A stretch of DNA of 52,543 nt. It comes from an uncultured Flavobacteriales bacterium. GTDB taxonomy: Bacteria > Bacteroidota > Bacteroidia > Flavobacteriales_D > Sanyastnellaceae. Of this stretch, positions 4,348-39,840 are shown one piece after another. The translations under genes and the position numbers were made by a program. Below the pieces are notes generated by a model that did not search any database, was not told the DNA's origin, and saw nothing but the letters and a program-made list of their open reading frames with translations. Location of the stretch: positions 1-52,543 of the forward strand of contig CAJQKK010000041.1 in assembly GCA_905478895.1 (NCBI GenBank), read 5' to 3'. The first letter of the stretch is position 1; each line of letters begins with the position of its first letter.

Positions 4348-7206
4348 TCAGTGGGCTTCCAACCAGTCTTTCCCCGAAGACATGTCAACCGCTAAGGGGA
4401 CGGACAAGGCGACAGCTTCCGTCATGGCCGGGCCGATCAAGGCCTCCAACTCACTTACTTCTGATTGGGGGACATCAAACACCAATTCATCGTGCACTTG
4501 CATGATCATTTTGGCGCGCAATCCTTTTGCCTTGAGCGCCGCATCAATCTTCACCATGGCGACTTTGATGACGTCGGCGGCAGACCCTTGGATGGGCGCG
4601 TTTACGGCATTTCGTTCTGCAAAAGCCCGCACGGTGGCATTGTTGGACTGGATATCGGGCAGGTAGCGGCGCCGACCGAGCACGGTTTCTGCATAGCCTT
4701 TGTCCCGAACTTCATCTACACACTGCGCCGTGAAGGCTTTGAGTGCAGCGAATTGTTCGAAATAAGCATCGATGATTTCTTTGGCTTCTCGTCGCGGGAT
4801 ACCCAAGTTTTGGGCCAATCCGAACGCCCCTTGACCATACAGGATTCCAAAATTGACTGCCTTGGCTTTGCTTCGCATGTCGCGGTCAACGGCTTCAGGA
4901 GAGACTTGAAAAACTTTCGCAGCAGTGGCCGTATGAATGTCCATGCCCTGGACAAATGCATCTACCAATCCACTGTCTTGGCTCAAGGCCGCGGCAATGC
5001 GCAATTCTACTTGGCTGTAATCCGCGGCGATAAGCACGTGGTGCTCATCTCGTGGGATGAAGGCTTTTCGAATGGCACGTCCTTCCGGCGTGCGGATGGG
5101 AATGTTTTGCAGGTTTGGGTCTTTCGAACTCAAACGACCCGTTGCGGCAACCGTTTGCTGGTATGTGGTGTGGATGCGACCCGATTGGGCGTTGACCAAT
5201 TTTGGCAGCGGTTCGACATACGTGCTATTGAGCTTTTTCAATTTTCGGTACTTCAGTACCAATTCGATGATGGGATGGGCGGATTTGAGCTTTTCAAGCA
5301 CTTCTTCGCCGGTAGGGTATTGGCCCGTTTTTGTTTTTTTCACCTTGGCAGGGATGGCAAGGGTCTCAAATAAAATGGGTCCCAATTGCTTGGGGCTGTC
5401 AATGTTAAACGACATCCCTGCATGCTCTTGAATGGCCTGTGTTAATTCGTCAATTTTAGTCCCCAATTCGACACTGTATTTTTCGAGTTCTGGGACATTG
5501 ATGCGGACACCCTCCAATTCCATGTCAGCAAGGATAACGGCGAGCGGCATTTCAACATCCCAAAACAGGGCTGTACTAGCCACGTCCTCTAACTGCGGGG
5601 CAAGGCGCTCGCGCAACTGAAAAGCAATATCGGCATCTTCGCAAGCATAGTCGGTGATGCTCGCAGGGTCCAATTGCCCCATGTGCTTTTGGTCTTTTCC
5701 CGATTTGCCGATGAGTTCCGTGATGGGCATGGTGGCATAGCCCAATTCCGTCTCCGCCAATCGATCCAATTTGTGAGAACTTTCCGGCTGGATGAGGTAA
5801 TGTGCAATCATGGTGTCGAATGCGCGGCATCTAAATTGCACGCCTCGTCGTGCGAGGATTTTATAATCGAATTTGAAGTGATGGGCGATGGCTTCTTTGG
5901 ACGAATCAGAGAAAATAGTGCCCAGGCGTTCGAGCAATGTAGCCTCGGTCCAATCGTCGCTGGCGACAGGAACCCACCAGGCTCTGCCAACTGCAGTAGC
6001 GAAGGACAACCCTACCAAATCGGCGGTCAGGGTGTTCAGTCCAGTGGTTTCGGTGTCAAAAGCAAAACATGAAGAATCCGTAAGCGCCTCCATCAAGGCA
6101 TCCAATCCGTTAGAATCTTGCACCAAGGTATACGTGTGCGTTGTCGTCGCGAGGCTGGCGTAGCCCGCATCTTCCGGGTCAGCGGTTGCGAAATGATTCG
6201 AGGATGCGGAATCGACCGATCCTTCGGGTGTTCCGAACAAATCGAGTTGGGCTTCTTGTGCCTTTGGTTGCTGCTGCGCAACAGCTGCTGAAGGAGTTGA
6301 TGAAGCGGAATCGCTCCCGGGATCACCGAACATGCGCCGAGCGAGCGTCCGAAACTCCAAATTTTCGAGGGTTTCCTTGAGCGTTTCAGCGCTGGGTTCT
6401 TCCAAGTCCATTTGATCCCAGTCAATTTCCATGGGTATGTCAAGGCAAATAGTCGCCAGGGATTTTGAGAGCTTGGCCAGTTCGACGTTTTCTTCGACCC
6501 GTTCTTTTAATTTGCCTTTGAGATTACCGCTGTTTTCGATGACACCTTCCAAACTGCCATATTGCTTCAATAATTTGGAGGCTGTTTTGGCTCCCACACC
6601 CGGAATTCCGGGGATATTGTCGGCACTATCGCCCATCATGCCAAGCAGATCAATCACCTGCAACGGGTGGTCAACTCCAAATTTCTCGCAAATTTCTTCG
6701 GGCCCCCAGACTTCAGCAGGACTGCCTCCGCGTCCAGGGCGGTACATTTTGACCTGGTTGGACACCAGCTGGCCGAAATCTTTATCGGGGGTCATCATGT
6801 ATACTTCAAACCCTTTTTCTTCCGCTTTCTTGGCCATGAATCCAATCACATCATCCGCTTCAAACCCTTTTTGGGTAATGGCGGGAATGTTCATTCCCTC
6901 CAGCAATTCGAGGATCCAGGGCACGGAGCGTTTGATGTCTTCCGGGGTTTCGTCTCGATTGGCCTTGTAATCCGGATACTGCTCATTTCGGAATGAGCCG
7001 CCCGGGGGATCGAACACGACAGCGATGTGGGATGGCTTTTCTTTGCGAATGACTTCGAGCAGCGCATTGGTAAATCCGAAGATTGCGCTGGTGTTCAGCC
7101 CTTTCGAATTGATGCGTGGGTTCTTGATGAAGGCGTAATACGCTCGGAAAACGAGTGCATAGGCATCAACAAGGAAAAGTTTACGGTCGGAGGGGGCGGA
7201 AATCAT
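4348..7206 (-). CDS. polA: DNA polymerase I
   Basis: This 952-residue protein fills gaps and removes primers during replication and repair. Three domains are visible: an N-terminal 5'-3' nuclease (about 1-295, with FEADDVIGF and GIPGVGAKTASKLL), a 3'-5' exonuclease (about 345-530) and a family A polymerase (to the end). The exonuclease keeps its metal ligands (DTETTGLN, Asp384 and Glu386), so proofreading should be active. Polymerase motifs are intact: DYSQVELRI (A), RSKAKAVNFGILYGQ (B) and VHDELVF (C). Start: ATG 7206; an in-frame GTG at 7230 is the alternative. It follows DUF2480 and dxs on the same strand, 45 bases after DUF2480, and may be read with them. Confidence 0.97.
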   Translation of the reverse strand: MISAPSDRKLFLVDAYALVFRAYYAFIKNPRINSKGLNTSAIFGFTNALLEVIRKEKPSHIAVVFDPPGGSFRNEQYPDYKANRDETPEDIKRSVPWILELLEGMNIPAITQKGFEADDVIGFMAKKAEEKGFEVYMMTPDKDFGQLVSNQVKMYRPGRGGSPAEVWGPEEICEKFGVDHPLQVIDLLGMMGDSADNIPGIPGVGAKTASKLLKQYGSLEGVIENSGNLKGKLKERVEENVELAKLSKSLATICLDIPMEIDWDQMDLEEPSAETLKETLENLEFRTLARRMFGDPGSDSASSTPSAAVAQQQPKAQEAQLDLFGTPEGSVDSASSNHFATADPEDAGYASLATTTHTYTLVQDSNGLDALMEALTDSSCFAFDTETTGLNTLTADLVGLSFATAVGRAWWVPVASDDWTEATLLERLGTIFSDSSKEAIAHHFKFDYKILARRGVQFRCRAFDTMIAHYLIQPESSHKLDRLAETELGYATMPITELIGKSGKDQKHMGQLDPASITDYACEDADIAFQLRERLAPQLEDVASTALFWDVEMPLAVILADMELEGVRINVPELEKYSVELGTKIDELTQAIQEHAGMSFNIDSPKQLGPILFETLAIPAKVKKTKTGQYPTGEEVLEKLKSAHPIIELVLKYRKLKKLNSTYVEPLPKLVNAQSGRIHTTYQQTVAATGRLSSKDPNLQNIPIRTPEGRAIRKAFIPRDEHHVLIAADYSQVELRIAAALSQDSGLVDAFVQGMDIHTATAAKVFQVSPEAVDRDMRSKAKAVNFGILYGQGAFGLAQNLGIPRREAKEIIDAYFEQFAALKAFTAQCVDEVRDKGYAETVLGRRRYLPDIQSNNATVRAFAERNAVNAPIQGSAADVIKVAMVKIDAALKAKGLRAKMIMQVHDELVFDVPQSEVSELEALIGPAMTEAVALSVPLAVDMSSGKDWLEAH

Positions 7207-7251
7207 GGGGTTTCGAGGCGTGTGTGACACTTCGAAGTTACCACCTGACGC

Positions 7252-7782
7252 TTAATTTTTTGCCTGATTTTTCGGCCGTTTGTAAACGGGAACGGTTGAG
7301 CATGGCTCGCCGTAAAAAATCGAAAGCGCCACGGGTTGCAGATGCCGGATGGCCGCTGCGAGGCTTTCTGCATTGGTACCTGAAGAGCAACCTTTGATGA
7401 CAATCCGGGCGTCGGTAAATTCCTCGAGCGGAAGGCGTTGAATGGCTTCCAGCAAAAGCGTTTGCTTGACTCCGCTCGGTGTACCAATGGCAACCGAAGC
7501 GCCGCAGGCTGTGAGCTGTGAAGTTGCCAGCATCCACGCCCATTCTGGAATGATTGCATCGTTGCTGCAATGGAGCGCTACAATTTTGTCCGCCCATTCT
7601 TCTGGATGCAAATTTTTCAGTGTCTCGCGGAATGGCTTTTCCCTGAGGATCAGGCCATTTTCCAGGCACTCTGCCAAGTCGAAGCGCATCACCGGCTTCT
7701 GGAGAATAAGGTCGTCCAGATCCAGGGCAGTCAAGCCACTTTCGTCTACACGGTTGCGGATTGCACCGGAGGCTTGTTCCAT
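7252..7782 (-). CDS. DUF2480 family protein
   Basis: This 176-residue cytoplasmic protein matches my memory of DUF2480, a Bacteroidota family without a known function. Characteristic parts are NRVDESGLTALDLDD at the N-terminus, a central GLILREKPFRETL, ARIVIKGCSSG, and the strongly conserved end IFYGEPCSTVPVYKRPK. Two conserved cysteines (in KGCS and EPCS) could form a metal or redox site, but that is inference. It starts three bases after the dxs stop codon on the same strand, so it is very likely translated from the dxs transcript, and polA follows 45 bases later. Confidence 0.85.
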   Translation of the reverse strand: MEQASGAIRNRVDESGLTALDLDDLILQKPVMRFDLAECLENGLILREKPFRETLKNLHPEEWADKIVALHCSNDAIIPEWAWMLATSQLTACGASVAIGTPSGVKQTLLLEAIQRLPLEEFTDARIVIKGCSSGTNAESLAAAIRHLQPVALSIFYGEPCSTVPVYKRPKNQAKN

Positions 7783-33031: not shown

Positions 33032-33553
33032 GTGATTTTTCAAGAGGTAACCATCGCTGAGCAATCCTTCATGGAGCATTGGCTGGAAATCGGCAAGCAT
33101 TGGGGCGTCCCCAAAGCCATGTTGGCCGTGCATGCCTGGTTGCTATTAAAGCCTCAGCCGCAGTCGACGGATGATGTGATGTACCACCTGAACATAAGCC
33201 GAGGCAATGCACATAACATGTTGCTGGAGCTTGTGGAATGGGAGCTGGTTCATCCCCTCAAAACGCTCGGAAAACGCCAGGTGCTTTTCGTTGCTGAGAA
33301 AGAAGATTGGGCCATGATGACGGCGATACTTCGGGTAAAAAAGAAGCGCGAATTGGACCCTTTTTTGACGTTGGACGATTGGCGGCAGGTCCATTCGGAC
33401 GAGTTATCGTCGGGAGAACACGATGGCTTGGATGCACGGCTGAAGAGTTGGATGGTAACGGCGCAGAAACTGGATCGACTGGCTCATTTGGCGTCCCGGG
33501 AGGACGAATCGTGGTGGAAGAGGTGGATGTTTTCGGCACTGCGAACAAAATGA
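33032..33553 (+). CDS. GbsR/MarR-type transcriptional regulator
   Basis: This 173-residue DNA-binding protein has a winged helix-turn-helix at about 20-85: WGVPKAMLAVHAWLLLKPQP, then TDDVMYHLNISRGNAHNMLLELVEW as the recognition region and a wing at LKTLGKRQVLFV. The pattern is that of the GbsR subfamily, of which the Bacillus member responds to choline. The C-terminal part is helical. The start is a GTG at 33032; an ATG at 33071 would still include the HTH. It lies 15 bases after the FAD oxidoreductase and 19 bases before the YfiR-like gene, so it could regulate either set. Confidence 0.8.
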   Translation: MIFQEVTIAEQSFMEHWLEIGKHWGVPKAMLAVHAWLLLKPQPQSTDDVMYHLNISRGNAHNMLLELVEWELVHPLKTLGKRQVLFVAEKEDWAMMTAILRVKKKRELDPFLTLDDWRQVHSDELSSGEHDGLDARLKSWMVTAQKLDRLAHLASREDESWWKRWMFSALRTK

Positions 33554-33572
33554 AAATCCATGGGAAGGCCGA

Positions 33573-34286
33573 ATGAATCGCTTAACTTCGAAACAAATTC
33601 AATCCATGCACGCTGTGTCCGATGAGCTTTCTGCCCGCCAAGCATCCCCGTCTTTTTCGACGCGGGAGCGCAAGGTTATGGTGCGTGGGAAGGAACGTTT
33701 CGGCTCATCGACTTGGAAGTCGAGCCGGGTGGCTCGGGGTTTCATCGCCGCATTGATCTGCTGCATCTGCGGGATTGATGTCCCCACTCTTGAAGCGCAA
33801 AGTCAGTTCACGCAGACAAGCACGCTCGATGAGTCGGACACTCGTTCCATCACCAAGGCCAATTTTCTCTTTCACTTTGCCGCATCCAATGAGTGGCCTT
33901 CGGAATTCATGGAAGGCCCTTTTCGGCTGGCAATCATTGGAAACCCTTCGCTGCACGCTATTCTTTCCGACAAGTATGCGATGAAATCCATAGGTCTCCA
34001 GTCGTTGGAAATATTGGGCTTTGAAGATGTGGCATCTTTGGAATCCGCTCCTTTCGTACATGTAATTTATTGCGAAGAATCGGGCGCCAAATTGCAGCGA
34101 ATTGCCGATGCTATTTCGAATGCCCCGGTGCTCTTAATTTCAGATGCTTCGGACGGATTGCAAAATGGAGCACTCATCAACTTTGTTTCGGTCAACAACC
34201 GCATTCGCTATGAAATCAATTCTGAGGAAGCTGCGAAACGCGACCTTCTCATTGGAAATCGAATTTTGTCTTGGGCTGTAAAATGA
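33573..34286 (+). CDS. YfiR-like (DUF4154) periplasmic protein
   Basis: This 237-residue exported protein has the DUF4154/YfiR domain at about 90-235: ITKANFLFHFAASNEWPSEF, FRLAIIGNPSLHAIL, APVLLISDASDGLQNGALIN and NRIRYEINSEEAAKRDLLIG all follow the family pattern. In Pseudomonas, YfiR holds the cyclase YfiN inactive from the periplasm. Here the mature part has only one Cys (in VIYCEES), so the disulfides of Pseudomonas YfiR are absent. A hydrophobic stretch ARGFIAALICCICGIDV near residue 55 serves as the signal sequence, unusually far from the first Met; ATG 33678 is an alternative start. The stop codon overlaps the next start (ATGA). Confidence 0.82.
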   Translation: MNRLTSKQIQSMHAVSDELSARQASPSFSTRERKVMVRGKERFGSSTWKSSRVARGFIAALICCICGIDVPTLEAQSQFTQTSTLDESDTRSITKANFLFHFAASNEWPSEFMEGPFRLAIIGNPSLHAILSDKYAMKSIGLQSLEILGFEDVASLESAPFVHVIYCEESGAKLQRIADAISNAPVLLISDASDGLQNGALINFVSVNNRIRYEINSEEAAKRDLLIGNRILSWAVK

Positions 34287-35209
34287 GCGCTATGAAAATC
34301 GACATACGATCCTTTTTGTTGGCCTGCGTGGTCGTCAGTGCTTCACTTTGCTCTTCGTTATGGGCACAGAGTGAAGTGGATCGGGCGACGGAACTCGGGC
34401 GATCGGGCGACTGGACGGCAGCCAAACAAGCGCTCCGGCCGGTCCTCAATACCCCTGCTTATCAAACGAATGGCCGTGCGTGGTTTGTGATGGGTTTCAT
34501 CCACAAGGAATTGCACAAATCCACAGGTGAATTTGGTTCAGATGCACCGGAGCGCTTGGAGGCGATAACTTGTTTGCAAAGGGCGATGCAATTGGGGATG
34601 AACCCAACGGACCGCGCTGTCGCGGTCGAAGCCATGGACTTCTTGTCGCGCAGCTATTTTCGGGAAGCGATTGGGATGGTGGAAGGATTTACGTGGGGTT
34701 CAACCGATGAGATTCAGGCGCTATATGGTCGATACGAAGCACTGGAAATGAGCCTGAATCCCACCAAGGATTTGGCGCCTCAACGGTCTGATCTAAGCCG
34801 TTATTTGGGCCAGGCGCATGCCATGCTTTTGGAGTCAGAATCGCCGAGATCCTCAGCAGAATTGAAGGCAATCTTCGAGGCCGCGATTGGTCATTACGGC
34901 GACGCTTTGAAAGGCAATCCGAATGATTATGCCGCACAATACAACCTTGCCATTACCCTCTACAACGAAGGGGTGCGCAAATTGAAGCGCATCAATCATG
35001 AAACGTCCATGTTTGAGCTGATGGAAATCCAGGACGGATGCATCGATTTATTCGAACGAGCGTTGAGCCCAATGCAAGCCGCTCATGCGCAGCAGCCCAA
35101 TCGATTGGAAACGCTGAAAGGCTTGATGACATTGCATTATGCCCTGTCTCAGAAAACGGCATCCGATGCGTACCGAGCTCAAATCGAGCAGATTTTAGGG
35201 AATCGCTGA
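34283..35209 (+). CDS. Exported TPR-like helical protein
   Basis: This 308-residue protein has a signal peptide (IRSFLLACVVVSASLCSSLWAQ). The mature part is almost entirely helical, with TPR-like helix pairs such as ELGRSGDWTAAKQALRPVL and YGDALKGNPNDYAAQYNLAI; the latter is a good TPR consensus. It probably acts as a periplasmic protein-protein adaptor. The ATG at 34283 overlaps the stop codon of the YfiR-like gene as ATGA, so the two are translationally coupled; ATG 34292 is an alternative. The SpoIIE phosphatase starts 53 bases downstream. The partner is inferred, not seen. Confidence 0.8.
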   Translation: MSAMKIDIRSFLLACVVVSASLCSSLWAQSEVDRATELGRSGDWTAAKQALRPVLNTPAYQTNGRAWFVMGFIHKELHKSTGEFGSDAPERLEAITCLQRAMQLGMNPTDRAVAVEAMDFLSRSYFREAIGMVEGFTWGSTDEIQALYGRYEALEMSLNPTKDLAPQRSDLSRYLGQAHAMLLESESPRSSAELKAIFEAAIGHYGDALKGNPNDYAAQYNLAITLYNEGVRKLKRINHETSMFELMEIQDGCIDLFERALSPMQAAHAQQPNRLETLKGLMTLHYALSQKTASDAYRAQIEQILGNR

Positions 35210-35262
35210 ATCAAACGCTGGCGCCAGAAGGGTTTGCACCGTTCTCGCGTTAACTTGGCCGC

Positions 35263-37083
35263 ATGATTCGCACACAGGGGCCAGGCCGAAAGAGCCAGCA
35301 TATTCCTGGGAAATTTCAATGGGGCATCGGATGGCGCATCTCGGTGGGTTTTGGAATTTTTGGGGTGGCCGTGGGTGCACTTTTCCTTCTCACGCGAAGC
35401 ACACTGGAGGAAAGTCAAAAACTCAGTCAACACATTGATGGTGTCCTGACTCCGAGCATTCAATCCCTGGAAGAACTTGACCGGTCCGTAGGCGAAACGC
35501 GCATCTTGATTCGCCATTGGTTGTCGGTTCAATCGGGTTCCCGCGACCCCGAAAAACGGGACTTACTCGAGCTCATGGACTCAGATGTTCCTGAGCAAGT
35601 GGCTGCGATGCAACCATTGGTTGAATCTTGGAACGCGCCAATGCAGCTGCAGTTTGATTCCCTCCGCCGCGATGTAGAATACCTGTTTTTGGCATATTCA
35701 GAAGTGATTCGTTTGCTGCCGGACTTTCGTGCTTACGATGATCCATTGGCAATGATGGAGGCGGAATATTACGCATTGGATGGCTCCAGTATTCCGCGTT
35801 ACACCGCGAGCATCCGCAAGCGCATGGACACCATGTCGCTGGCCCAGACCGATGCACTCACCGCATCCACGGCACAGATGGATTTATTGAGCAATCGATT
35901 GAAGTTGTATGCGGGCAATGTGGCTTTGGGTATTTTAATCCTTGGTTTTCTGATTGCTTGGGCGGTGACACGATCCATTGTTCGGCCTATTGGTGAATTG
36001 AAACGTGCCTTACTCTACCTCGGTCGAGGCGTACCATTGGCCAATGAAGTGGAACCCACGTCTGACGAAATCGGTGAAATGGCACACGCAGTGAACCGGC
36101 TCGCGGATGGATTGAATCGAACACGTGCGTTTAGCATGCGCGTTGGACAAGGAGAATTTGATGCGGATTACCAGCCCTTGAGTGCGGATGACGCGCTGGG
36201 GCATGCCATCTTGAAAATGCGCGATGACTTGGAGAGCAATGAACAGGAACTGGAAGGAAAGGTGCAAATGCGAACGGCGGAGGTAGAGCAGCAAAAGAAG
36301 CGGGTTGAATCGTTGTATGTAGACCTGAAAGACAGCATCAATTATGCCGAGCGGATTCAAAAAGCCATTTTGCCTTCCGTCGAAGATCGAGCAAAGGTTT
36401 TTGAGGAGACGGCTGTTTTCTACCGCCCTCGTGACGGGGTTTCAGGGGATTTTTATTGGTTCCATACCGTGGGCCGTGTGCGCATGTTTTCGGCCATCGA
36501 TTGCACGGGTCATGGTGTGCCCGGCGCATTCATGAGCCTGATTGGTCACAATGCACTGGAACGGGTTACCAAGGTCTACACCCAGCCAGATCGCGTTCTT
36601 GAGCAATTGAATCGAGCCGCATGTGAATTGCTCCGCCCACAGGGATTTGGAGAAGACGAAGGCATGGCAGCGGTTCAGGACGGCATGGATTTGGCCATGG
36701 CTACCGTGGACCTGGAAAAAATGGAGCTGGAATACAGCGGTGCCAATTGTCCGCTTTACCTCGTGCGCAAGGGAATGCTCCAGGAATTGAAGCCAGACAA
36801 GATGGCCATCGCCTCGTTTGAGCCCGGCACCCGTAGCTTTGAGATGCAAACGGTGCCGTTGGTTTCTGGCGATGTGATCTTCGTCGCGACGGATGGATTT
36901 CCAGATCAATTTGGAGGCCCGAAGGGCAAGAAGTTCATGCGCAAGCGCTTTCGCGAGTTGCTGGTCCGCGTGGCCCCATTGCCGCCCCAAGACATGGAGA
37001 ATGCTTTGGCGGAAGCGTTCAATGAATGGAAAGGTGACGAAGAACAAGTCGACGACGTGCTGGTCGTTGGTGTTCGAATTTGA
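35263..37083 (+). CDS. Membrane HAMP-SpoIIE (PP2C-type) phosphatase
   Basis: This is a 606-residue sensor phosphatase. TM1 lies at about 25-45, a predicted helical periplasmic sensor at 46-213 and TM2 at about 214-236, followed by a HAMP domain (SIVRPIGELKRALLYL), a coiled coil (about 325-365, MRTAEVEQQKKRVESLYVDL) and a SpoIIE domain. Metal-binding acidic residues are kept: Asp396 in SGDFYW, Asp413 in IDCTGHGVPGAF, Asp544 in ATDGFPDQF, and Asp597/Asp598 near the C-terminus, so phosphoserine/threonine phosphatase activity is expected. Targets in such systems are often anti-sigma antagonists, but none is encoded nearby. It forms a probable unit with the YfiR-like and TPR-like genes. Confidence 0.9.
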   Translation: MIRTQGPGRKSQHIPGKFQWGIGWRISVGFGIFGVAVGALFLLTRSTLEESQKLSQHIDGVLTPSIQSLEELDRSVGETRILIRHWLSVQSGSRDPEKRDLLELMDSDVPEQVAAMQPLVESWNAPMQLQFDSLRRDVEYLFLAYSEVIRLLPDFRAYDDPLAMMEAEYYALDGSSIPRYTASIRKRMDTMSLAQTDALTASTAQMDLLSNRLKLYAGNVALGILILGFLIAWAVTRSIVRPIGELKRALLYLGRGVPLANEVEPTSDEIGEMAHAVNRLADGLNRTRAFSMRVGQGEFDADYQPLSADDALGHAILKMRDDLESNEQELEGKVQMRTAEVEQQKKRVESLYVDLKDSINYAERIQKAILPSVEDRAKVFEETAVFYRPRDGVSGDFYWFHTVGRVRMFSAIDCTGHGVPGAFMSLIGHNALERVTKVYTQPDRVLEQLNRAACELLRPQGFGEDEGMAAVQDGMDLAMATVDLEKMELEYSGANCPLYLVRKGMLQELKPDKMAIASFEPGTRSFEMQTVPLVSGDVIFVATDGFPDQFGGPKGKKFMRKRFRELLVRVAPLPPQDMENALAEAFNEWKGDEEQVDDVLVVGVRI

Positions 37084-37158: not shown

Positions 37159-37992
37159 TTACTGAGCAAAGACGGACCCTCGGACGACGCGCGTCTCAAT
37201 GGGATTAATGATCAAAACAGGAATCTGGGCTTCATTCGTAATGATTTGCTGCTCATATGTTTGACCCAAAATGCCCATCAGGCTTTTCTCGTGCAAGTTC
37301 ATTATGCTGATCAAGTCGGCTTCTATGGCCGCCGCATGCCGCACGACATCTTTGACGAAAGCGCCGGAACTGTGCTCGGAGATTTTGACCGTGTACTCAA
37401 TGTTGCGTTCACTGAAGTATTCTTTGGCATAGTCAATGTTCCGGTTCAATTGGTTTTTCAAGAATTCATCCGTCTCTGCAGGACTGATGATGTGCACGCG
37501 TCCGCTGAAATACGTGGCCATTTCAGCAACCGTTGACAGCTTTTGCTTGGTGTCTTGGTGCAAGTCGAGGGGAACCACAATATCATCGTACCCGGTTTCT
37601 TTGATCCCCTTTTCCTGGGTGATGATAAAAGGGGTCGAACAATTGGTGACAATTCTCAAGGCGCGCCCTCCGGTAAGGAACTGCATGCCTTTTAAGCCGT
37701 GGGTCCCCATAATGACCAAATTGGCATCCTGTTCAATGGCAACATCGTCGATGTCTTCAAAAATCGACCCGATGCGGATGGCGGTTTTGATGGTGTGTGG
37801 GTATTTCCCATCGAACCGCTCCATCAGAACTTTCACTCGAAGCCGCGCATCCGTCATTTCCTTTTTGGAGGAGATGATGTGCAGCAAGAGGATTTCACTC
37901 TTGAATGCTTTTCCGACGACAAAAGCGTGTTCCAAAGAAATTTCACTCACAGGAGTGAAATCCATGGGGACGAGGATGCGATGTTGAGACAT
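37159..37992 (-). CDS. Tandem universal stress protein (UspA family)
   Basis: This 277-residue cytoplasmic protein has two Usp domains (about 1-143 and 148-270). The first carries the ATP-binding pattern G-x2-G-x9-G in MGTHGLKGMQFLTGGRALR, so nucleotide binding is likely there. The matching region of the second (NLHEKSLMGILGQTYEQQI) lacks the glycine pattern, so the second domain may be structural. ATG 37992 opens with RILVPMDFTPVSEISLEHAF, typical of the family. A consensus promoter box lies 25 bases upstream. It is divergent from the ClC gene. Confidence 0.9.
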   Translation of the reverse strand: MSQHRILVPMDFTPVSEISLEHAFVVGKAFKSEILLLHIISSKKEMTDARLRVKVLMERFDGKYPHTIKTAIRIGSIFEDIDDVAIEQDANLVIMGTHGLKGMQFLTGGRALRIVTNCSTPFIITQEKGIKETGYDDIVVPLDLHQDTKQKLSTVAEMATYFSGRVHIISPAETDEFLKNQLNRNIDYAKEYFSERNIEYTVKISEHSSGAFVKDVVRHAAAIEADLISIMNLHEKSLMGILGQTYEQQIITNEAQIPVLIINPIETRVVRGSVFAQ

Positions 37993-38058: not shown

Positions 38059-39840
38059 ATGCGGAGGCAATGGTTTTTAAAAATGTTTGCGGTTGGTTTT
38101 AACCGATGGAAAGAGTCGGATCAGTCCATGATGGGCTGGGCGGTGTTGACGGGTTGTGCAGCGGGTTTGCTTGCGGTATTGTTGAAACGAACGGTTGGTG
38201 CGATGCACTTCGCTATGAACGGGATTGCCGGGTTTCTTGACGCGCCATGGTGGCTGGGAATTGGGCCACTCATGGGACTTCTCTCCACCCGGTGGGTCGT
38301 GCGCAAGTGGCTGCGAGGCGACCATCCGGGTCCAGGAGTTCCGAGCATTTTGCATGCATTGTCGCAGCGGCACGGACGCATCAAGCGAATGTGGATGTTT
38401 GCGCCATTGATCACGAGTTCACTTTCAGTGGGTTTGGGAGGGTCCGGAGGGTTGGAGGGGCCATCGTTGCAATCTGCGGCAGCCATTGGATCAGAGATTG
38501 GCAGGCAGACCAAAAGGGCCTTCAATCGGCGTATGCTGTTGATTGGTTGTGCTGCTTCTGCCTCATTGGCCGCGTTGTTCAAAGCCCCGGTGGCAGCCAT
38601 TATTTTCGCTGTTGAGGTGATCATGATTGATTTGACAGCGGCCAGTTTGGTGCCTTTGCTCATGGCATCGTTGGCAGGTTTGATCACCGCCAGCTTGTTT
38701 CAGGGACAAAATGATATTTTGACCATTTCGAATTTGGCTGATTTTGAATTGAAGACGCTTCCTTGGTACCTGCTGCTCGGCGCTGCATGTGGCGTTGGTT
38801 CCGTGTTTTTCTCAAGGCTTTATTTGGGTGCGAGTCACGCCGTGACCCTTTTGCCCTCGCACCGACTGCGCATATGGATCGCTGGAATTGGCATTGGAGC
38901 TGCGCTCTTGCTTTTCCCTTCGCTCTATGGCGAGGGCTATCAAATTGTGAATGCGCTGTTCGAAGGAAAGGTTGAAATGCTGGCTTCTGGGATTCAACTC
39001 CAAAGTTTGGAATTGAATGGATGGATGCTCATCGGATTCTTGATGTTGGCGTGGGTGCTCAAGCCAATTCTGACGGGTATGACTTTGGGAGCTGGCGGTG
39101 TGGCAGGGGTTTTCGCTCCGGCTATTTTTTGCGGCGCGCTGCTCGGCCATCAATTCGCCATCGTAACGGAATGGATCAGCAGTTCTTGGGCGTTGCCTAT
39201 GGGCCATGCGGTTTTGGCGGGTCTTGCGGGGATGTTGGCGGGAGTTCTGCATGCGCCATTGACAGCCATTTTGCTGACCGCAGAAGTGAGCGGGGGCTAT
39301 GCCTTGTTCGTGCCGGTCATGTTGACCTCTGCCATTAGTTTTCGAATTTCCAAAAGCTGGATGAAGCATACGGTCTACACGCGGGAGCTTGCTGAGCGGG
39401 GCGAATTGCTGACGCACGACAAAGACCAATCCATTTTGACATTGATGAACCTGATGGACCAGGTAGAAAGTGACCACGAAGTCGTGAATCCGCATTGGAC
39501 GCTAGGCCAGCTCATTCCCATCATTGAACGCAGCCGTCATGAGGTTTTTCCGGTATTGGATCGGAATGGTCAATTGCTTGGATTGATTGAATTGCAGGAG
39601 ATTCGTGAGGTGATGTTTGACCGTGAATTGTATGACAGCATGCATGTCCACGACATGATGAATATTCCAATGGCGACCATTGATGTCACCATGCGAATGG
39701 ATGAAGTCATGGCGATTTTTGAACGCTCAGGGGCCTGGCGTTTGCCGGTTTTGGCGGACACCCAATTCAAGGGCTTTGTATCGCAGACGAATTTGCTGTC
39801 GAACTACCGAAATTGGCTCAAAGCCTCGAGCATCGAGTGA
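38059..39840 (+). CDS. ClC-family anion channel/transporter with C-terminal CBS pair
   Basis: This 593-residue inner-membrane protein has the ClC fold (about 25-445) and two CBS domains (about 468-590). Filter motifs: GPGVP at 91-95, GLEGP at 131-135 with gating Glu133, GVFAP at 350-354, and Tyr414 in SGGYALFVP. Pro92 replaces the Ser that favours chloride in E. coli ClC; a Pro at this site favours nitrate in plant ClC-a. The internal proton glutamate position (E. coli Glu203) is Val187, after Glu186, as in ClC channels. So transport may be uncoupled or differently coupled. The CBS pair suggests nucleotide control. Start: ATG 38059; ATG 38083 is an alternative. Confidence 0.92.
   Translation: MRRQWFLKMFAVGFNRWKESDQSMMGWAVLTGCAAGLLAVLLKRTVGAMHFAMNGIAGFLDAPWWLGIGPLMGLLSTRWVVRKWLRGDHPGPGVPSILHALSQRHGRIKRMWMFAPLITSSLSVGLGGSGGLEGPSLQSAAAIGSEIGRQTKRAFNRRMLLIGCAASASLAALFKAPVAAIIFAVEVIMIDLTAASLVPLLMASLAGLITASLFQGQNDILTISNLADFELKTLPWYLLLGAACGVGSVFFSRLYLGASHAVTLLPSHRLRIWIAGIGIGAALLLFPSLYGEGYQIVNALFEGKVEMLASGIQLQSLELNGWMLIGFLMLAWVLKPILTGMTLGAGGVAGVFAPAIFCGALLGHQFAIVTEWISSSWALPMGHAVLAGLAGMLAGVLHAPLTAILLTAEVSGGYALFVPVMLTSAISFRISKSWMKHTVYTRELAERGELLTHDKDQSILTLMNLMDQVESDHEVVNPHWTLGQLIPIIERSRHEVFPVLDRNGQLLGLIELQEIREVMFDRELYDSMHVHDMMNIPMATIDVTMRMDEVMAIFERSGAWRLPVLADTQFKGFVSQTNLLSNYRNWLKASSIE

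Follow-up and report, generated by a model that had tools for sequence, protein, structure and literature searches.

In the YfiBNR (TpbB) system of Pseudomonas aeruginosa, the DUF4154 protein YfiR is encoded together with YfiN, an enzyme of transmembrane (TM)-periplasmic-TM-HAMP layout that ends in a GGDEF domain and belongs to cyclic dimeric guanosine monophosphate (c-di-GMP) signalling; YfiN is described as having a periplasmic PAS domain (PMC4887326). In the SiaABCD system of the same species, the phosphatase SiaA combines two TM helices, a HAMP domain and a PP2C domain. According to the accounts cited here, SiaA removes and the kinase SiaB adds the phosphate at Thr68 of SiaC, within the motif LLYLNTSSIK (PMC7647112), and it is SiaC in its unphosphorylated form that switches on the diguanylate cyclase SiaD (PMC8457831). 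Here we describe an operon of an uncultured marine Flavobacteriales bacterium in which parts resembling both systems are joined, namely genes for a YfiR-like protein, a TPR protein and a membrane phosphatase at positions 33573 to 37083 of contig CAJQKK010000041.1 (assembly GCA_905478895.1, 64% complete and labelled G000 below; the whole stretch of 52,543 nucleotides that was analysed is called the window). The conservation of this operon is near certain, and we consider it moderately probable that it encodes a Sia-type phosphoprotein switch that works without c-di-GMP and receives an envelope input from YfiR and the TPR protein.

The open reading frame (ORF) listing of the window contains four consecutive ORFs on the plus strand between 33032 and 37083, as an earlier annotation made from the letters alone (the sequence-only reading) had reported. 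The ATGA by which the YfiR-like and TPR-like genes overlap was read from the window DNA at 34283-34286. The features are given below; labels of the type Gnnn, Lnnn and Cnn denote genomes, loci read and contigs of this analysis, and pLDDT is the predicted local distance difference test score.

33032..33553, plus strand: GbsR/CudC-like winged-helix regulator, a neighbour outside the module core (CudC model, 18.8 bits).
33573..34286, plus strand: YfiR/DUF4154 periplasmic protein, domain at about residues 95-235 (PF13689, 2e-24).
34283..35209, plus strand: predicted TPR superhelix protein with a signal peptide (model pLDDT 91, fold match to TPR proteins).
35263..37083, plus strand: membrane phosphatase consisting of TM, periplasmic sensor, TM, HAMP, coiled coil and SiaA-type PP2C/SpoIIE domain.
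35398..35901, plus strand: periplasmic sensor of the phosphatase (residues 46-213), modelled as a four-helix bundle, with conserved P64, W86, P110, W123 and Y158.
35965..36117, plus strand: HAMP domain of the phosphatase (residues 235-285; Pfam PF00672, 1e-6).
36493..37077, plus strand: PP2C/SpoIIE catalytic domain (Pfam residues 411-605, 1.4e-21; 6k4e, Z 30.8 over 242 residues).

DUF4154 was found in 52 of the 60 genomes of the same genus, family and order (own genome counted), and 50 of these 52 have the order YfiR-TPR-phosphatase (45 complete, five cut by a contig end). In the two remaining relatives, G042 and G054, YfiR adjoins a histidine kinase. Among 198 genomes of the class Bacteroidia, 85 encode DUF4154, at 134 places; besides those covered with the relatives, 100 regions and nine further ones were read. 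A strict triplet, defined as YfiR, a gene of 200-420 amino acids and SpoIIE following each other on the same strand, is present at 83 of 155 loci (window counted), and the gaps between YfiR and the TPR gene lie mostly between -25 and +24 bases. For nine loci without a called YfiR ORF, a six-frame search recovered the complete module in all but one, where it is truncated.

The class was also searched with the periplasmic region of the phosphatase alone, as an alignment of 22 rows that held no DUF4154 information. Matches were obtained in 79 of the 198 genomes. The 63 strong ones (E 1.5e-45 or better), one per genome, come from 23 families, and in 62 of them DUF4154 is encoded upstream on the same strand at a distance of 922-1355 bases, a spacing that places YfiR one TPR gene away from the sensor (the exception is G066). 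The phosphatase form of the sensor thus almost always has a YfiR partner, and the DUF4154-TPR-HAMP-SpoIIE adjacency, which the sequence-only reading had proposed as a check, was found in the relatives, the strict loci and the sensor matches alike. A phylum-wide sample yielded the sensor in 9 of 198 genomes. Since only two of these matches were strong, both from the own family, the module is frequent in the class sample (63/198) but not in the phylum-wide set. It is very improbable that this gene order is an inherited neighbourhood without functional meaning: the genes for a universal stress protein and a CLC chloride channel and the upstream KBL and DAO genes are conserved within the family as well, but the triplet is kept in class genomes of 23 families where these neighbours change, its genes overlap translationally, and separate fusions exist. 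A second class of DUF4154 genes lies directly before histidine kinases (L108-L112, L114, L116, L120, L129), mostly downstream of a gene of 640-880 amino acids that is TonB-dependent receptor-like by size only.

The phosphatase has the TM-periplasmic-TM-HAMP layout and the PP2C-type ending that were ascribed to it, with two hydrophobic helices and the Pfam matches listed above. By sequence, its PP2C active site is intact, and 82-83 of 83 relatives retain the aspartates D396, D413, D537, D544, D597 and D598, with one row truncated at this point. A model was built with 13 sequences (mean pLDDT 80.7; L220, which contains an unknown residue, was excluded from the structure alignments). The solved structure closest to the PP2C domain is SiaA (6k4e; Foldseek 6.4e-17; VIA Z 30.8 over 242 residues, 2.1 Å), so that the protein is of SiaA type in combining HAMP with a PP2C fold and conserved catalytic aspartates. 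The SiaA equivalog model NF038263 gives 223 bits over residues 286-606, the C-terminal half, which is below its NCBIfam cut-off of 700, and does not match the periplasmic half. RssB and RsbU are also among the fold matches; the RsbU/SpoIIE/RssB partner switches share the PP2C domain and the phosphoprotein-kinase-phosphatase logic, whereas the similarity to them is lower than to SiaA. The second SpoIIE protein of the genome (L197, 406 amino acids) is soluble, of a different type, and scores 52 bits with the SiaA model; exactly two SpoIIE proteins occur in 21 of the 22 genomes of the genus.

The periplasmic part of the phosphatase model is a four-helix bundle (pLDDT about 90). PP2C dominated the fold search when the entire phosphatase was the query, and a second look gave as best structural match of the sensor the ligand-binding domain of the chemoreceptor MCP2201 (Z 16.2, also 15.6; 130 residues, 1.9 Å), although helical bundles score high easily. 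The likeness to YfiN seen in the sequence-only reading therefore extends to the layout and not to the sensor, which in the model is no PAS domain, and the mode of YfiR-YfiN binding is not simply transferable.

The YfiR-like identity of the 33573-34286 product was confirmed by PF13689 (86.7 bits, Pfam curated cut-off 24.9). The YfiR equivalog model NF053586 stays below threshold (15.3 bits, NCBIfam cut-off 85). A family profile of 28 relatives matched the YfiR structure 4zhy in the PDB at 2.2e-7; phmmer with the window protein alone gave only chance matches to the PDB. The length conserved among relatives suggests that the true start lies later than 33573. In the family-profile alignment, Tyr213 takes the position of Pseudomonas Phe162, described as the conserved surface residue at the centre of the patch proposed to bind YfiN (Malone 2012, PMC3375315). 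Of 83 family members, 78 carry F or Y here and 76 have E as the next residue, so that the [FY]-E motif is shared with the Pseudomonas protein. For the latter, two redox disulfides are reported, Cys71-110 and Cys145-152 (PMC4887326). The mature domain of the window protein has a single Cys, and the family shares just one of the four cysteine positions of Pseudomonas, that of Cys110 (35/83, the window copy not included). Disulfides of the Pseudomonas redox type are therefore absent from the family, in line with the remark of the sequence-only reading on its YfiR copy. The TPR gene occupies the place that is held in the Pseudomonas operon by YfiB, an OmpA/Pal-like lipoprotein. All Pfam TPR matches of the 34283-35209 product remain under the curated cut-offs; its AlphaFold2 model (pLDDT 91) is a superhelix with generic matches to TPR superhelices, and the predicted TPR identity, made in the first place from the sequence, holds by model and fold match.

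N-terminal DUF4154 domains occur in 17 proteins longer than 350 amino acids, 15 of which end in SpoIIE (L071 and L101 were checked against Pfam). None of these 15 fusions has a separate sensor domain. A separate DUF4154 goes with the sensor and a fused one goes without it, which suggests that YfiR feeds the phosphatase; this pattern is the best sequence evidence for such a connection and is independent of adjacency. In a tree of 149 DUF4154 domains, which has few columns and was rooted only for drawing, tandem and fused forms group separately: 14 SpoIIE fusions need two label changes (shuffled mean 13.6) and the tandem forms need nine (shuffled mean 48.6). At L071 (5259-9457), two tandem TPR-TM-SpoIIE genes directly precede a DUF4154-TM-SpoIIE fusion, an arrangement in which TPR domains, too, are fused to such phosphatases.

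The divergence of the components was compared in 65 of the 83 triplets (17 loci of the same genus were dropped and one failed the length rules). Sensor distances correlate with YfiR distances (r 0.68) more strongly than with those of the PP2C domain located in the same protein (0.45), and the partial correlation of sensor and YfiR given PP2C is 0.58, a value as high as which appeared in 0 of 500 permutations. The TPR distances also correlate (0.62 to 0.65). From adjacency, fusions and divergence together, an action of YfiR on the phosphatase appears likely.

A kinase and a phosphoprotein of the Sia type are encoded in the same genome. Contig C47 of G000 carries one adjacent pair, a SiaC (PF09345, 6.4e-37) whose motif LEYFNTSSSK retains the NTSS phosphosite, and a SiaB-family kinase (DUF6272/SiaB, 1.8e-18; 73.8 bits with the SiaB subfamily model, below its cut-off of 85). 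Every one of the 63 class genomes with the module encodes SiaC, compared with 60 of the remaining 135; among the 50 module-bearing relatives the count is 47. At most module loci, the window included, siaB and siaC lie elsewhere. They directly precede YfiR in one genus (L136, L137, L156), follow a gene pair of YfiR and sensor-HAMP-GAF-SpoIIE at L299, and are found within a few genes at L118, L122, L127 and L227. At L106, SiaC starts 10 bases after a DUF4154-SpoIIE fusion, and at L279 the siaB/siaC pair lies two genes past a fusion. Such linkage was counted at seven of the 155 loci, at three of the 11 DUF4154-bearing loci of the fusion set (L224 with SiaB only, L227 and L279) and, among 20 further loci, at L299. 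At the last-named locus, two SiaB-family genes stand in tandem before SiaC (5834-7405). In the own family, a siaB-siaC pair adjoins a large ABC-transporter-like gene (L196, 6432-7363 and 7364-10291).

GGDEF domains were not found in the own genome or in any of the 63 module genomes; they occur in 6 of the 198 class genomes and in 2 of the 60 relatives, one of these over the cut-off. In contrast to the YfiBNR setting, nearly all genomes searched in this phylum are without c-di-GMP enzymes. An output through c-di-GMP was rejected for want of GGDEF, and SiaC in these Bacteroidia must act on a partner other than a SiaD-type enzyme.

In the mechanism envisaged here, the secreted YfiR-like protein would act on the four-helix periplasmic sensor, with the secreted TPR protein helping or scaffolding it. 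HAMP and the coiled coil would relay the state of the sensor to the PP2C domain, which most likely strips from SiaC the phosphate added by SiaB, and dephosphorylated SiaC would bind or leave a partner other than a diguanylate cyclase. The contact between YfiR and the sensor, SiaC as substrate, the sign of the control and the signal are points that we infer. As to the original proposal that YfiR-type periplasmic control has been attached to protein dephosphorylation, adjacency and fusions support it, YfiR-YfiN binding is not directly transferable, and it had missed SiaB and SiaC.

Several observations on the input and the substrate side weigh against this switch. Only nine of the next 18 sensor matches have an adjacent DUF4154, and adjacent cases of middle score include other outputs (hybrid histidine kinases at L150, L131 and L144; GAF and PAS at L172). 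The kinases L303, L304, L309 and L310 carry the sensor without an adjacent DUF4154, and an exclusive tie of the sensor to DUF4154 partners was rejected for this reason. In addition, fast evolution shared by envelope proteins may contribute to the distance correlation. The phosphatase might accordingly sense ligands through its own four-helix domain, as MCP2201 does by binding citrate directly, while YfiR and the TPR protein are merely co-expressed, bind or transport something else and make no contact with it. Against this stand the sensorless DUF4154-SpoIIE fusions, the almost invariable adjacency of the strong matches and the correlated divergence of sensor and YfiR, and we consider it improbable.

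On the substrate side, the association of SiaC with the module is significant in a Fisher test (p ~1e-17, total of 199 entered) that ignores ancestry, and 60 class genomes have SiaC without the module. No SiaC match was found among the searched relatives in the module-bearing G012, G021 and G030, one of them 98% complete. In the genome of the window, SiaB and SiaC are encoded on a contig other than that of the module, and at L137 another SpoIIE gene precedes siaB. In known stress pathways, STAS proteins are the substrates of PP2C/SpoIIE phosphatases. A YfiR-controlled phosphatase whose substrate is an RsbU/RsbV-like STAS anti-anti-sigma factor, or several proteins, would fit this background, the RssB and RsbU fold matches, the unlinked genes and the module without a SiaC match in G030. 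The catalytic half, however, scores far higher with SiaA than does the other SpoIIE protein of the genome (223 and 52 bits), SiaC accompanies the module in 63 of 63 cases, and siaBC adjoin it in several lineages. A substrate other than SiaC is thus unlikely, if slightly less so than sensing without YfiR, and SiaC is the reasonably probable substrate of the phosphatase.

The regulator gene 33032..33553 had been taken for the leader of the module. Its GbsR-type identity is weak in the window copy (18.8 bits, NCBIfam cut-off for GbsR/CudC 218) and better in a relative (L043, 52 bits to CudC). GbsR lies within three genes upstream in only 17 of the 83 triplets, all from the own family; it is upstream in 21 of 22 loci of the genus, in 15 of which a ferritin gene intervenes between GbsR and YfiR. 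Because KBL and DAO belong to the same upstream run of genes on this strand, too, the label is unjustified, and GbsR is a lineage neighbour and not a general leader. In 30 of the 83 triplets, across the own order, one of the three preceding genes encodes ferritin, for example just upstream of YfiR at L034 (9134-9736), L075 (9424-9948), L065 and L078. Seven loci of the genus, the window among them, lack ferritin between GbsR and YfiR, as does the sub-lineage of the window at this place; it was not found in the 64%-complete own assembly. Ferritin gives only a hint of iron as a signal. Beside the module, a two-domain universal stress protein (37159-37992, minus strand) and a CBS-domain chloride channel (38059-39840, plus strand) are conserved in the own family. 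An anti-phage defence role for the four genes was dropped, as their proteins had no PADLOC match at E 0.01.

Exchange of outputs behind YfiR has been published: Malone 2012 (PMC3375315) describes a modular core of YfiR and YfiN[PAS] whose output is GGDEF-EAL, HPT or a histidine kinase. That core has a PAS sensor, whereas a four-helix sensor and a phosphatase output are found here. The main text of that paper never mentions Bacteroidetes, and the word "phosphatase" appears in it solely within the title of a reference. A literature search that covered papers other than subscription papers and preprints gave nothing linking YfiR to SpoIIE or PP2C, and searches of the same scope on YfiR, DUF4154 and the SiaC family gave no paper title describing a YfiR-TPR-phosphatase operon. 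The phosphatase output, the sensor fold, the TPR partner and the probable SiaC target are thus new here. Compared with SiaABCD, YfiR and TPR are added and SiaD/GGDEF was not found.

These findings carry the concept of a modular periplasmic regulator, already in print for YfiR, over to an output and a sensor fold that are both new. With SiaC-family proteins in 123 of 198 Bacteroidia genomes and GGDEF nearly absent, the module would supply the SiaC switch with a defined input and make it accessible to a compact genetic test, and the single-protein DUF4154-SpoIIE fusions make the signalling step open to direct study. Tentatively, and with some doubt, the module may represent a general envelope-response pathway of Bacteroidia, with DUF4154 as an exchangeable input to SiaA-type phosphatases that set SiaC phosphorylation, provided either in trans (four-helix sensor and TPR adaptor) or in cis (fusion), and with a SiaC target that is not a diguanylate cyclase. 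If this is true, the Yfi and Sia c-di-GMP switches of Pseudomonas would be rearranged pieces that cooperate elsewhere without c-di-GMP.

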